This document shows, one piece after another, positions 6,328 to 32,218 of a stretch of 35,860 bases of DNA. Numbering within the stretch: position 1 is the first letter of the stretch; every line of letters starts with the position of its first letter. A program made the position numbers and the translations under genes. This DNA is from Planctomycetota bacterium (GTDB lineage: Bacteria > Planctomycetota > Phycisphaerae > WQYP01), in assembly GCA_021785155.1 (NCBI GenBank), contig JAJYGE010000153.1:1-35860 (forward strand), read 5' to 3'. Under the pieces are notes generated by a model. That model saw only the letters and a program-made list of their open reading frames with translations, ran no database searches and had not been told where the DNA came from.

Positions 6328-7356
6328 TTACTTTTTGAGAAAAAATGTAATGTATTCCATATAGCCCGCCGGGGAGTTAAAGTCATTGGTATTGTCGGGG
6401 GGGATGGCCAAATTTGCCATCGGCACGGTTTCCGCGTGGCCGTCCAAAAATGCGACGTTCATCTTTTTAAAGTTATCGTGTACCGCGTTGCCGGTCTGTC
6501 CCCATTGGTCAACGGCATCCGGGTCTCCGATCGGATTGCAATAATCACTGACACCCACACCGTCCTGCACAAACATCGTTTCACCGGGGTTGGCGGCAAT
6601 GGTCATGGCGGGACATTCCAGCGGAGTATTTTGGGTGTCGCCCGGATAATTTCCGGGCAATACATAAGGGTAATAATTGGTGTCGTCGTAAAGTGCGGGG
6701 ATATCCGCATTGCCCGGACCAAATACCGCCGAGGTAGTCTGGCCGACCACGCTCATGTTAAATTCGTACTCTACAAACCCGGCGTATTGAAGCCATGGCA
6801 ACTGTGCCGTCATGGCTGCCGGGGCCCAGGCGTCAGCCGGGCAAATAAACGCCGAAGCCGCAGTAATATAGCCTCGTGTCACCAGCACGCTTTGCCCTTT
6901 CCAAGACCAAGGGACTCCAAAGGGCGAGTTAACCCCAGTCGGGCCGGCTTCCGGGACGCCCTGCGTATTAAGAAACTGGCCAATGCCCGGCGTATTCGGG
7001 TTGCCATACGGGAGATATCCATAAAGCGCCGCCCCGGGCGCATGGCCCCGATGCTCATTGGCCCATTCCATTGTGGCTATCGTAATCTGCCGCTCATTGC
7101 TGGCACACACGATCGTATTGGCCAAATCCCGTGCCCGCGCCAAGGCCGGCAACAGCAGCGCAATCAAAATAGCGATGATGCTGATGACCACAAGTAGTTC
7201 GACGAGGGTGAAGCCCGCGCGGCGATGCCGCGAGGAGTTAGGAGTTAGGAGGAAGGAGCTAGAAGGATATGGAAGCGCTGCGCTTCGCTTTACCTCTTGC
7301 TCTCTGGATTCCGGATTCCACATCATACACCTTCTTTCCAAATTGTGACGTTTCAT
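6328..7356 (-). CDS. Type II secretion/type IV pilin-like pseudopilin with H-x-DG domain and long leader
   Basis: 342 aa. The start at 7356 is fixed by AAGGAG six bases upstream. The prepilin peptidase site is [13 protein letters not shown] with cleavage after G48 and the conserved Glu at +5 (E53), followed by an about 20-residue hydrophobic helix. The C-terminal part has [13 protein letters not shown], the family signature seen in the large planctomycete pseudopilin group. Two Cys (in IVCAS and FICPAD) lie as usual for this group. The 48-residue leader is far longer than the usual 6-25 and is encoded by low-complexity DNA. The gene heads the glycoside hydrolase cluster with only 29 bases to the GH2 start. 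Proteins of this family are abundant in Planctomycetota and their precise role is unknown; a surface or secretion-linked role is inferred. Confidence 0.88.
7228..7321 (-). repeat. Low-complexity repeat within the pseudopilin leader
   Basis: Tandem degenerate copies of an AGTTAGG/AGGAG-type unit occur at about 7230-7262 on the plus strand (gaggagttaggagttagg). A second unit, ATTCCGGATTCC, lies near 7306-7318. Read on the minus strand these encode residues about 13-45 of the pseudopilin, the Ser/Pro-rich leader. The same gag-tta-gga unit recurs outside genes at 34174-34190. Confidence 0.6.
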
Positions 7357-7695: not shown

Positions 7696-8442
7696 TCAGA
7701 CTGCCTTCCGGCGCTTCAGCAGCAACAAGCTCATTCCACCGATGGCCACCAAGCCCAGTGTGGCTGGTTCCGGAACCGGGGTTGCTGTTACCTGGACGTT
7801 GTTAAAGCCCAACTGGCCGGCACTTGTGGTGGTATTATAGGCACCGAGTACCAGCGTTAAATCACCGGAAACAGTGTTGCCGGTGGTGTAGGAAAGGCTT
7901 TCGATGTTGAAATCACCATTGGCGGAGATCGGGTTCGTCGTTGAAGTGGCAGTGGTGGTGCTGTTGTACGTAAAGCTGCTCAAAACGCTGCCCGCATCCG
8001 TGGTGCCATTGATTAATTCCAGTACGCCGTTCATACCGGTGGTTGCCGATCCGGAATTGAAGCCACTCTCTACGGTCATGGTGTAGGTGGTATTGGCCTG
8101 TAAGGCTCCAACATCTTGATACAAATCTGCTTGGATGCCGGTGCCGGCGGTACTTGGCAGGTCCGCAAAGCCAACATTTGTTCCGGTAACGCCCGTACGG
8201 GAACCAATATCGCCGACACCACCATAAAAACTAATGGTCCAGTCCGTGGCGACATTGGAACCTGCACCAGCCGTGTAGTACTGTTGCTGGTTATTTGAGT
8301 TGGTAAAGGGTAACTGTGGGGTGCTGTACTGAAAAATAGGATTCAACACCGTGACCACCGAAGCCGAAACTGTTCCGGCCAACAACCCGAAGGGCATTGC
8401 CGCGACCGCCACGGCAGGCAGAAACTTAATGATGGTTTTCAT
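7696..8442 (-). CDS. PEP-CTERM sorting-signal protein
   Basis: 248 aa from the ATG at 8442, chosen because AAGGAG lies seven bases upstream; the frame is open further upstream but that part lacks signal-peptide character. A Sec signal peptide covers about residues 1-29 (MKTIIKFLPAVAVAA... ending around SAS). The body is Thr/Ser/Asn/Gly rich and beta-prone. The C-terminus is a textbook PEP-CTERM tail: PVPEPATLGLVAIGG, a hydrophobic helix and KRRK. Such tails are processed by an exosortase, leaving the protein in or outside the envelope. No exosortase gene is in the window. The function of the mature domain is unknown; it resembles the many secreted beta-sandwich PEP-CTERM proteins. Confidence 0.9.
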   Translation of the reverse strand: MKTIIKFLPAVAVAAMPFGLLAGTVSASVVTVLNPIFQYSTPQLPFTNSNNQQQYYTAGAGSNVATDWTISFYGGVGDIGSRTGVTGTNVGFADLPSTAGTGIQADLYQDVGALQANTTYTMTVESGFNSGSATTGMNGVLELINGTTDAGSVLSSFTYNSTTTATSTTNPISANGDFNIESLSYTTGNTVSGDLTLVLGAYNTTTSAGQLGFNNVQVTATPVPEPATLGLVAIGGMSLLLLKRRKAV

Positions 8443-8558
8443 AACCATTCTCCTTAAAAATCTCCCCCTCATCAGGAGAGCTGCCAAGAATGCCAATATC
8501 CATTGCGAGCCCGAATAGACTCGCTGAAAAATGGAACTCGCACATTCTTTCAATAGTG

Positions 8559-8587
8559 ATTGTAGCACACCCCGCAATACAAAACAA
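8559..8587 (-). promoter_or_regulatory. Sigma70-like promoter of the PEP-CTERM gene
   Basis: On the minus strand the sequence is TTGTTT, 17 bases, TACAAT, with TGC just before the -10 box (extended -10). It predicts a start near 8552 and a leader of about 110 bases. Confidence 0.55.
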
Positions 8588-29282: not shown

Positions 29283-30260
29283 CTAAACGCAACGGTATAC
29301 CTTGTTTTCCTCCGGATCCAGTTCCCCTTCCACAAACCGGTTCAGCACCAACAGGCTGAACTGCCACATCACCCAGATTTCAATGCCAAAGGACAGAAAC
29401 CCAAGTAGCCCCGGCACGGGCATTTCAAAATATCGGACGTGCTGCCACCAGCCCAGAAATGGCAGATGATACGTCCACTTGGCCAATGCCCAGTAATTCC
29501 AGAATTCCCACAGAAAGCCGCACGTTAAGCCGCCAAACATCAGCGAGAAAGTGCGACCCCAGCGCCCGGATCGCCAATCCCCGATAATACTGGGGCGGCC
29601 ACACCAGAAATTAACGGGATCCAATAGAAAAACCCAACTTACCCAAAGCATCAGATCCGCGATGGGGCTACGTTCGATAAATGGCCCGGCAAAAAATACT
29701 ATGCCCAGAAAAATTGATGCGATTTGCACCGGACGCGTGATGCGCACGCCACAGCTGGAATTCCAACGATTCAGCCCCATTCGCATCCATAATTCCGCCG
29801 TCAGCAGCATGGCCGGAGCAATGGCCGCAAAGGCCATCAGATACCCCGCAAAACGTTCTAACGGATCGGCGGGAATCCCATGGTAGTTCCAGGCGTGCAA
29901 GCCCGTGGCGGGATCCACCATGAAATAGAAATTGATCCAGTCAAAAAAACACCAGGCCGGAACCGACCAGAGCCATAAGACGGCCAGGCGAAAGCGATAT
30001 GCTTTCAGCCAATTGACGTTGTCCCAGCGGCTTAATGCGCCGAGAAGAAAAACGAGAAATGCCGACCAGATCAGGGGGGTAAAATTCACCCGGATCAACG
30101 TTCCAAATTCAGCATACGGCCCAGGGAGAATGTGTTGCGCAGAGAGAAATAGGATTAATTCCAAGAAAACGACAATAGCCAGACCGGTCCATAAGAACCT
30201 CCGGCCCGGGCGTTCCCCCGCGATCAAATATTTATCAGACGCTTGAGTGTACCGCACCAT
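29283..30260 (-). CDS. Polytopic membrane protein of unknown function
   Basis: 325 aa with about eight predicted membrane helices (for example LWTGLAIVVFLELILFLSA, LIWSAFLVFLLGAL, LAVLWLWSVPAWCFFDWI, IASIFLGIVFFAGPFI, LMLWVSWVFLLDPVNFWCG). The C-terminal third holds Trp/aromatic-rich conserved-looking blocks: FLWEFWNYWALAKWTYHLPF and RYFEMPVPGLLGFLSFGIEIW. I have an impression of similar unnamed proteins in other environmental bacteria but cannot assign a family. Its start has only a weak ribosome site. It is flanked by non-coding repeat DNA downstream and by the divergent small ORF/pseudopilin unit upstream, so context gives no hint of function. Confidence 0.8.
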   Translation of the reverse strand: MVRYTQASDKYLIAGERPGRRFLWTGLAIVVFLELILFLSAQHILPGPYAEFGTLIRVNFTPLIWSAFLVFLLGALSRWDNVNWLKAYRFRLAVLWLWSVPAWCFFDWINFYFMVDPATGLHAWNYHGIPADPLERFAGYLMAFAAIAPAMLLTAELWMRMGLNRWNSSCGVRITRPVQIASIFLGIVFFAGPFIERSPIADLMLWVSWVFLLDPVNFWCGRPSIIGDWRSGRWGRTFSLMFGGLTCGFLWEFWNYWALAKWTYHLPFLGWWQHVRYFEMPVPGLLGFLSFGIEIWVMWQFSLLVLNRFVEGELDPEENKVYRCV

Positions 30261-30874: not shown

Positions 30875-32218
30875 ATGCAAAAGACTGCGAAATCTTATGG
30901 CTTTTCGCTGACCGAATTGCTGGTTGTAATTGTCAGTATCATGATCCTATCCGGGATCACGCTGGCGTCTTTGAGCCGAGCCAAAGAATACGCCCGCGTT
31001 ACGGAATGTTTATCAAACCTGCATCAGCTTTCGCTGGCAGCCACTGCTTATGCGGTCAACAGCCGGGGAGCGCTTCCTTCAGACGACAACACTCCAGACG
31101 GTTACTGGTATCCGGAATTAGCCCGCTACGACACGGACATCGCGGCCAATGCGTTATGTCCCGACGCTATGCCGCCATCGGGCGGTATTGGTACGGCGTC
31201 ATTGGCCTGGGGCGTTGTGAACATGTCCGCCCAACCGCATCCGCCAGGTTATCCCTGGGCGGTCGGAACGACCTCCAGTTATGGCCTGAATAATTATGTA
31301 GACCCTGGAAATAACATATCCGGTATTTCAAGTTTCGGTTTTGTAAATCTCAGCGGTAATCAGACGTTCCATGGCGATGTTGCATCCGCCAGCGGTATTG
31401 TCGCCAATGGTAACGTCAGCGTGTACGGCAATTTGACCGCCGGGGGAAATATTACCGCCAATGGGAATGTTTATATCAGCGGCTCTCAGATTCCAAATAT
31501 GCCCGGTATACAACCACCGAGTGTCAGTGAAATATTTCAGCAGATTCAAACCAGCGACAATCCCACGACCGTAACAAGCCCACAAGTCCTCGACTTTACC
31601 CAAAATCCTTATCAGATCATTAACGGTAATTTTTCGCCCAGCGGCCAGATTCAAATAATCGGCAGCGGCACTCTGCTTGTTTCCGGCGATGTCACCATAT
31701 CCGGGCATTTCCCGGCCAACGGATCAGGCACCGCCAGTATCAACCTTGTGGTGTTGGGAAATATCAATATGTCAGGCCAGACGAACATTAATGGCGGCCT
31801 GTATGCGGGCCAGGGGATTTCCATCCGCGGAAAATACAATTTAAGCGGCGTGATGGTCGCCGACGGAGCGTTTAATAACAATGGCCGGGGCACCTATGTT
31901 CAAGGCGCACCACCAGCCTTTGACCCGCGTGTTCAGAATGGCAACCTGCTGGCCAGCCAGCCTCTTTTTGCGGACGCCATCTGGGTGGACGGCTCGCCCT
32001 TGTCACCTGATCCAGTGCCTGCAAACCTTCAGTACGGTAATTCCACTTTAAGCAGTAAGGATGACATGGGGATATTCTGTATCAACCGGCATATAGGGCA
32101 GGTGAATGTTTCGTTCACCGATGGCTCGGCACACACCGTTCCACTTGCGCAGTTGTGGCAATTGCGGTGGTCCTCAACATTTACACCCAAGAATGTCACG
32201 ATCCCGATGTCATGGTAA
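30875..32218 (+). CDS. Pseudopilin with beta-solenoid domain nested in H-X9-DG fold
   Basis: 447 aa, GGAG nine bases before the ATG. The prepilin site is KSYG|FSLTELLVV (cleavage after G9, Glu14), followed by a hydrophobic helix. The H-X9-DG family frame is visible on both sides of an insertion: TECLSNLHQLSLAATAYA, LCPDA and SSYGLNNYV before it, then ADAIWVDGSP, MGIFCINRH-x9-DGSAHTVPLAQLWQLRW after it (H406, D416, G417). Between about residues 145 and 345 lies Gly/Asn-rich beta-repeat sequence (GNVSVYGNLTAGGNITANGN; SGDVTISG; LVVLGNINMSG; NGGLYAGQGISIRGKYNLSG) resembling polymer-forming or DUF7305-like right-handed beta-solenoids found in other pilin-like proteins. Its stop directly abuts the convergent leuC stop. 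Confidence 0.85.
   Translation: MQKTAKSYGFSLTELLVVIVSIMILSGITLASLSRAKEYARVTECLSNLHQLSLAATAYAVNSRGALPSDDNTPDGYWYPELARYDTDIAANALCPDAMPPSGGIGTASLAWGVVNMSAQPHPPGYPWAVGTTSSYGLNNYVDPGNNISGISSFGFVNLSGNQTFHGDVASASGIVANGNVSVYGNLTAGGNITANGNVYISGSQIPNMPGIQPPSVSEIFQQIQTSDNPTTVTSPQVLDFTQNPYQIINGNFSPSGQIQIIGSGTLLVSGDVTISGHFPANGSGTASINLVVLGNINMSGQTNINGGLYAGQGISIRGKYNLSGVMVADGAFNNNGRGTYVQGAPPAFDPRVQNGNLLASQPLFADAIWVDGSPLSPDPVPANLQYGNSTLSSKDDMGIFCINRHIGQVNVSFTDGSAHTVPLAQLWQLRWSSTFTPKNVTIPMSW

Follow-up and report, generated by a model that had tools for sequence, protein, structure and literature searches.

Architecture of the locus

The window analysed here, a stretch of 35,860 nucleotides from a planctomycete of the Phycisphaerae (contig JAJYGE010000153.1, assembly GCA_021785155.1), carries a gene for a pseudopilin whose pilin core is predicted to hold an entire beta-solenoid domain. 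The gene and its parts are laid out as follows; models are from AlphaFold2 (AF2), P0038 is a relative that lacks the insert, and L164, L165 and L166 are loci that encode solenoids on a different type of protein.

30875..32218 (+): solenoid-bearing pseudopilin gene, an open reading frame of 447 amino acids with 35 further homologues that carry the solenoid and are 47-66% identical
30875..30901 (+): prepilin leader, residues 1-9, with cleavage before F10 and E14 as mature Glu5 (sequence, with N_methyl below cut-off)
30908..31060 (+): predicted long N-terminal pilin helix, residues 12-62 (AF2 models)
31277..31291 (+): SYGLN, predicted pilin-sheet strand 2 and upstream border of the insertion loop (P0038 core model, strand 136-139)
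31301..31930 (+): predicted nested beta-solenoid domain, residues 143-352 (AF2 and fold matches; absent from P0037-P0039)
31322..31486 (+): first predicted coil set, residues 150-204 (AF2 strands)
31523..31558 (+): predicted helix 217-228, separating the two coil sets (AF2)
31586..31909 (+): second predicted coil set, residues 238-345 (AF2 strands)
31910..31930 (+): exit linker PPAFDPR (the form PPxFDPR also closes the C-terminal solenoids of L164, L165 and L166)
31961..31990 (+): PLFADAIWVD, where the pilin fold resumes as predicted strand 3 (P0038 core model, strand 177-181)
32090..32125 (+): H-X9-DG motif, H406 to G417 (sequence, with NCBIfam TIGR04294 below cut-off)

Read directly from the sequence, the leader MQKTAKSYG/FSLTE is short and basic with the cleavage pattern G/FSLTE, and exactly nine residues separate H406 from D416-G417 near the C-terminus. 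An earlier sequence-only reading had proposed a prepilin cleavage site, a hydrophobic helix and an H-X9-DG frame; the leader, the mature Glu5 and the H-X9-DG motif bear this out in the sequence, and the helix is predicted. Hidden Markov models of the corresponding families score the protein below their curated cut-offs (N_methyl, 13.9 bits against 21.2; DUF1559, 20.9 against 23.3; TIGR04294, 17.6 against 19), and because of the last of these scores we file it as H-X9-DG-type and not as a strict TIGR04294 match. In the family alignment A2, where matches were counted at E ≤ 0.01 and not by curated cut-offs, N_methyl is found in 29 of 39 members, DUF1559 in 36 and H-X9-DG in 15. Some relatives bear the source name 'prepilin-type processing-associated H-X9-DG protein'.

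A predicted beta-solenoid nested in a pilin-like core

The insert is not a chance feature. It is present in 36 of 43 homologues (query included; only candidates with the most shared words were scored for this set) and has a mean length of 214 residues, those without it being P0037-P0039 (261-272 amino acids) and four distant pilins, P0040-P0043, which were excluded from A2 and from the insert counts. Gly, Asn, Ser and Thr make up 45% of its composition, and the 36 inserts hold 2-7 Lys+Arg and 8-19 Asp+Glu. Pairwise identity averages about 0.45 and 0.56 for the two coil regions, 0.44 for the stretch that separates them, and 0.57 and 0.68 for the flanks. AF2 models residues 151-350 as a solenoid, with a mean pLDDT (predicted local distance difference test) of 76-96 in ten-residue blocks. 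What had first been noticed as some 200 residues of Gly/Asn-rich beta-repeat between the two pilin halves is now a predicted 210-residue solenoid (residues 143-352), and the same domain order recurs in 35 other homologues. Public genomes yield 26 loci, of which L001-L024 all have at least one insert (33 in total in the 24 scanned), L025 is insert-less and L026 matches only distantly and in part; L001-L025 are titled as Planctomycetota, Phycisphaerae, Phycisphaerales or Phycisphaera. Among the best candidates listed (at most five per genome), a whole-protein profile at E ≤ 1e-40 matched a single genome, the centre genome G001 itself, out of 294 in the phylum. A query with the solenoid region alone (148-350) returned 17 proteins, all of them already in the 43-protein set; stand-alone solenoids would mostly escape such a query, in which the length of the whole protein sets that of the candidates.

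Several members elaborate on this plan. Additional segments of some 30-100 residues, rich in Gly or in Gly/Asp, occur in other loops of L024, P0036, L010-L012, P0015, P0018 and P0020, lying ahead of PWL in P0036 and in the solenoid, past the helix, in P0015, P0018, P0020, L011 and L012. P0045 and P0047 have the look of front and rear fragments from a single disrupted solenoid-pilin gene, or else of two partial copies.

The model of the insert-less P0038 (aligned with 101 others; pLDDT 89.9, predicted template modelling score 0.84) gives a clear, well-predicted insertion point. The model comprises one helix (12-62) and five strands (110-113, 136-139, 177-181, 223-228 and 233-237). Its weakest in-fold stretch, at about 141-170, is the site of the solenoid in others and falls between the second and third predicted strands. 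Core alignment A4 comprises 102 of 140 proteins, with 11 of the 36 solenoid rows kept; P0044, P0047 and P0049 were left out, as were ten rows whose N-terminal parts differ. Foldseek returned no match at E ≤ 0.001 for the insert-less core. Type IV pilins account for nine of the ten matches to solved structures listed by a second aligner, at low Z-scores of 3.4-5.1, and residue 1 of the solved chain aligns to model residues 7-10 in eight of nine pilin rows; the core is best called pilin-like, an assignment that rests on these rows, the leader and the family alignment.

The span from SYG.N to the next core motif is 28-39 residues in the insert-less P0038, P0039, P0048, P0050, P0052 and P0107 and 51 in P0037, against 218-262 in the four solenoid-bearing proteins measured, which marks the site as a loop of variable length in this family, here filled by a whole domain. 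Such a position would also suit an ordinary variable H-X9-DG loop of low complexity that does not fold. This we consider extremely improbable in view of the confident solenoid prediction, the 44-56% mean identity kept inside the insert across 36 rows and the homologous domains on other proteins described below; at the level of prediction, an unfolded loop is refuted by the modelled solenoid.

Relationship to known solenoid families

The AF2 solenoid matches the fold of ice-binding proteins and of ComZ, a solenoid with a helix packed alongside. DUF3494 ice-binding proteins (e.g., FfIBP, PDB 4nu2) share this fold, which is here nested in a pilin; a fold match is silent on function, and the claim of an ice-binding function was dropped. 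By sequence comparison, no described family claims the domain at its curated cut-off, those of DUF7305, DUF3494 and bactofilin all being unreached by the solenoid. DUF3494, DUF7305, pAdhesive_15 and bactofilin (10, 19, 7 and 13 rows, respectively, in the profile comparisons) were each considered as its family and none was accepted, since solenoids score well against reversed sequences too and profile probabilities alone cannot be trusted for that reason.

The likeness to DUF7305 (PF23981) proposed in the sequence-only reading found no clear support. The family has no match at E ≤ 10 on the solenoid pilin and is over its cut-off in none of the 12 genomes searched; forward and reversed profile scores hardly differ (22.9 and 20.7 bits), and the profile comparison gave 47% (66% for the second half) against 14% for the reversed control, or 52% against 50% once distant rows were added. 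These comparisons are not clearly above their reversed controls, and any relation to DUF7305 would be a distant one. DUF7305 is over cut-off in 42 of 199 planctomycete genomes, and several of its open reading frames begin, by eye, with a hydrophobic PilX-like segment, so that these proteins, like the present one, place a solenoid on a pilus-type protein. Another such carrier is L167 (120-1307, reverse strand), in which a Tad-type N-terminus is joined to a DUF7305 solenoid.

DUF3494 (PF11999) likewise has no match at E ≤ 10 on the solenoid pilin; at E ≤ 0.01 it is found in one of the 39 A2 members (P0017, 18.6 bits, cut-off 28.7), and its profile comparison gave 2%. Eight ice-binding proteins are weakly matched by the family profile among PDB sequences (E 0.054-1.4), with the first coils of the insert paired with the end of the ice-binding domain and out of step with the fold alignment; these may be solenoid look-alikes. 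Stand-alone DUF3494 proteins over cut-off (L062-L067, L070-L073), some with PEP-CTERM-like ends by eye, occur in six of the 12 genomes. The 'ice-binding-like adhesive' family pAdhesive_15 (PF20597) is unlisted for the solenoid pilin at E ≤ 10 and found in three of 39 A2 members at E ≤ 0.01; it is borderline on the L001 orthologue (26.9 bits in the genome search and 21.7 when scanned as a 447-residue protein; cut-off 23.8), and its profile comparison gave 5% against 0.3% reversed.

Bactofilin (PF04519) scores 11.1 bits on the solenoid pilin (cut-off 27.9) and is found in six of 39 A2 members at E ≤ 0.01 (best E 0.00046, best 20.8 bits). These weak matches to a polymer-forming family favour the idea that the protein is a self-assembling fibre or polymer subunit, in which the solenoids of neighbouring subunits would stack end to end. 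The profile comparison gave 17% for the real family, below the 52% of its reversed control, and kinship was not accepted. Of the pilin with a self-assembling solenoid that had been envisaged, the predicted solenoid nested in a pilin core stands, and self-assembly is kept solely as a rival that we hold very unlikely.

A homologous solenoid on other pilin scaffolds

A profile built from 15 nested solenoids found matches at E ≤ 1e-4 in 25 of 397 genomes of the class to which G001 belongs, among the best-scored matches listed (at most seven per genome); 11 of the 25 are the previously known G001-G011. In L164, L166 and L176 the solenoid forms a C-terminal tail behind a hydrophobic PilX-like N-terminus, and L165, which starts at a contig edge with its N-terminus out of view, has the same tail. 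The nested-solenoid profile scores 153.5, 112.1 and 74.8 bits on L164, L165 and L166, against 28.4, 29.8 and 27.1 bits when reversed, and 39.6 bits on L176, for which a reversed score is not listed; nested solenoids compared with the reversed tail set gave 96% with a score of 65, against a forward score of 257. On these sequence grounds the four tail solenoids are homologous to the nested one over the whole domain, and in L164-L166 they end in the same PPxFDPR linker. The N-terminal scaffold of these proteins differs from the H-X9-DG-type core. PilX_N scores 14.7 bits on L164 (cut-off 25.5), with no match at E ≤ 0.05 in L165 and L166, the others scanned; we take the AAEAG motif to be a further sign of PilX. 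As judged from these alignments, the solenoid is a module common to pilin scaffolds, carried as a C-terminal tail by PilX-like proteins and nested in those of the H-X9-DG type.

A divergent H-X9-DG-type protein, L175, also has a nested solenoid (81.3 bits). An independent second insertion was considered for it, and it may or may not share the insertion event of the other nested solenoids: the solenoid tree places L175 with the nested ones (support 91/99, under the starred level of the tool), and the core tree leaves its placement unsettled. L167, L168 and L169 are weaker class-level matches of other pilus-type or unclear nature and were not counted as tail homologues.

Probable gain and loss of the domain

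The solenoid pilin lies between a membrane-protein gene of the type found at 29283 and leuC, an order common to the window and L001-L004. In L025 the same neighbours (75% and 96% identical) flank an insert-less pilin identical in sequence to P0038; no full-length solenoid match was among those listed for its genome, G012. In the more distant L022 and L024, leuC (87% identical) is also nearby. The upstream neighbour (29283-30260, reverse strand) is a conserved membrane protein, 75-78% identical across L001-L004 and L025, with no Pfam match at E ≤ 0.001.

In the core tree, the insert-less P0038 and P0039 are nested in the subclade of P0001 (support 98/99), and P0037, which still has a vestige similar to the insert's final part, adjoins nine solenoid rows in another subclade (96/82). 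The solenoid label requires three changes on this tree, which are read as one gain and two losses because the outgroups used lack the solenoid. Rows were chosen by hand (54 in the first tree, 41 in the second core tree, 18 in the solenoid tree), and a long-branch warning in both tree runs makes deeper placements unsure. The sequences are thus best read as recording a single gain in this clade and at least two losses, with insert-less relatives whose frames are still open, in one case at the orthologous locus. That these relatives persist suggests that the solenoid is dispensable for persistence of the gene.

Copy number varies among solenoid-bearing loci, with three-paralogue arrays in L005, L006 and L008 (51-64% identical to the window protein) and a pair of copies, full or partial, in each of L003, L007, L009 and L013. 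Elsewhere in the window, a second prepilin gene without a solenoid (6328-7356, reverse strand; N_methyl 34.4 bits, over cut-off) encodes a related C-terminal motif with 11 residues between H and DG; it adjoins a gene for a PEP-CTERM protein (7696-8577) and lies among glycosidase genes.

A probable modular pseudopilin and its possible role

The closest known parallel is ComZ of Thermus thermophilus (PDB 6qvi; PMC6561018), in which a solenoid of the ice-binding fold is nested in a pilin, as predicted here. The A2 profile matches 22 PDB sequences at E ≤ 10, and 6qvi is not one of them. The ComZ insertion lies between the penultimate and last strands, whereas here it is predicted between strands 2 and 3 of five; the ComZ solenoid has about 380 residues and the present one about 210; and the H-X9-DG-type core and the lack of a neighbouring pilin gene set the window protein apart. 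The ComZ solenoid is also treated in PMC8179133 and PMC13234629. PMC8179133, on PilB, describes modular pilins as a widespread way of displaying functional modules: in Streptococcus sanguinis PilB, GspK and CofB, as here, a functional module is grafted on a pilin (in GspK also inside the sheet), and their modules are of other kinds (vWA, alpha-domain, beta-repeat and beta-sandwich). A search of the literature on H-X9-DG, DUF7305, DUF3494 and planctomycete pili, with subscription papers mostly outside its scope, gave no description of the present arrangement among the records listed. The 'new architecture' announced in the sequence-only reading needs narrowing, since ComZ is already a solenoid nested in a pilin; host family and insertion point differ, and the protein is best described as a genuine new variation on the modular pilin of ComZ type, for which the insert-less relative offers a natural control.

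Type IV pilins are processed at their leader and inserted into the pilus through their core. From its leader and core, the window protein would likewise be processed and join a type IV pilus or pseudopilus via its N-terminal helix. Its bulky solenoid would be unable to pack inside the shaft, which by analogy would place the subunit at or near the tip; the argument is borrowed from ComZ, whose authors argue in PMC6561018 that a bulky rigid domain fits only there. There the solenoid would serve as a head. We consider it probable that the protein is a modular minor pseudopilin, with an H-X9-DG-type core, well predicted to hold one beta-solenoid of the ice-binding/ComZ fold in its strand 2-3 loop, and that this solenoid forms a head at or near the pilus tip that binds a ligand or mediates adhesion.

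Two other roles bear on the same evidence. Across the 12 genomes searched, the PilT family is over cut-off in all, secretin in 11 and ComEC in all, compared with 5, 6 and 10, respectively, of 14 control genomes. Together with the shared kind of architecture and solenoid fold, PilT and ComEC would suit a ComZ-like role in which the protein or its solenoid binds DNA; we think this rather unlikely, as ComEC is widespread in the controls too, no pilin gene adjoins the solenoid pilin in the window, and the scarcity of Lys and Arg relative to Asp and Glu does not favour DNA as ligand, short of excluding it. The metagenome-assembled genomes are presumably of acid-mine origin, to judge from isolate names. 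The argument from charge is softened in that few charges may suit acid water, and in that the authors of PMC6561018 saw no characteristic positive patch on the ComZ solenoid.

The protein might otherwise be a scaffold or polysaccharide-binding part of a secretion pseudopilus instead of a pilus-tip adhesin. The pseudopilin models GspG and GspH give weak N-terminal matches on the solenoid pilin, pseudopilus and pilus are indistinguishable from this gene, and glycosidase genes lie elsewhere in the window; the PilT family in all 12 genomes points weakly to pili, in a survey that did not search for type II secretion genes, and we judge this role decidedly unlikely.

Implications

The tip-head reading can be extended to one in which a homologous solenoid head has been exchanged between unrelated planctomycete pilin scaffolds, forming the tail of PilX-like proteins and sitting inside an H-X9-DG-type core; in the latter it would have arisen by a single gain, multiplied into arrays with as many as three paralogues and been lost on at least two occasions. 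To this wider account we give slightly less than even chances. Were it true, the ice-binding-like solenoid would, with ComZ, be a recurrent pilus-tip head, and the numerous H-X9-DG pseudopilins would acquire a first testable role as carriers of interchangeable tip heads.

Such proteins are abundant in these planctomycetes: in each of the 12 genomes searched, the family profile gives 16-65 matches at E ≤ 1e-5, a number that may exceed that of the genes, since one without the insert can be hit twice. In the literature listed under the name of the H-X9-DG family, the one paper concerns mussel mitochondria. Here the head is a separable domain, it recurs on another type of pilin, and a natural form without it occupies the orthologous locus, so that a comparison of the two natural forms can directly address what these pilins carry and where.
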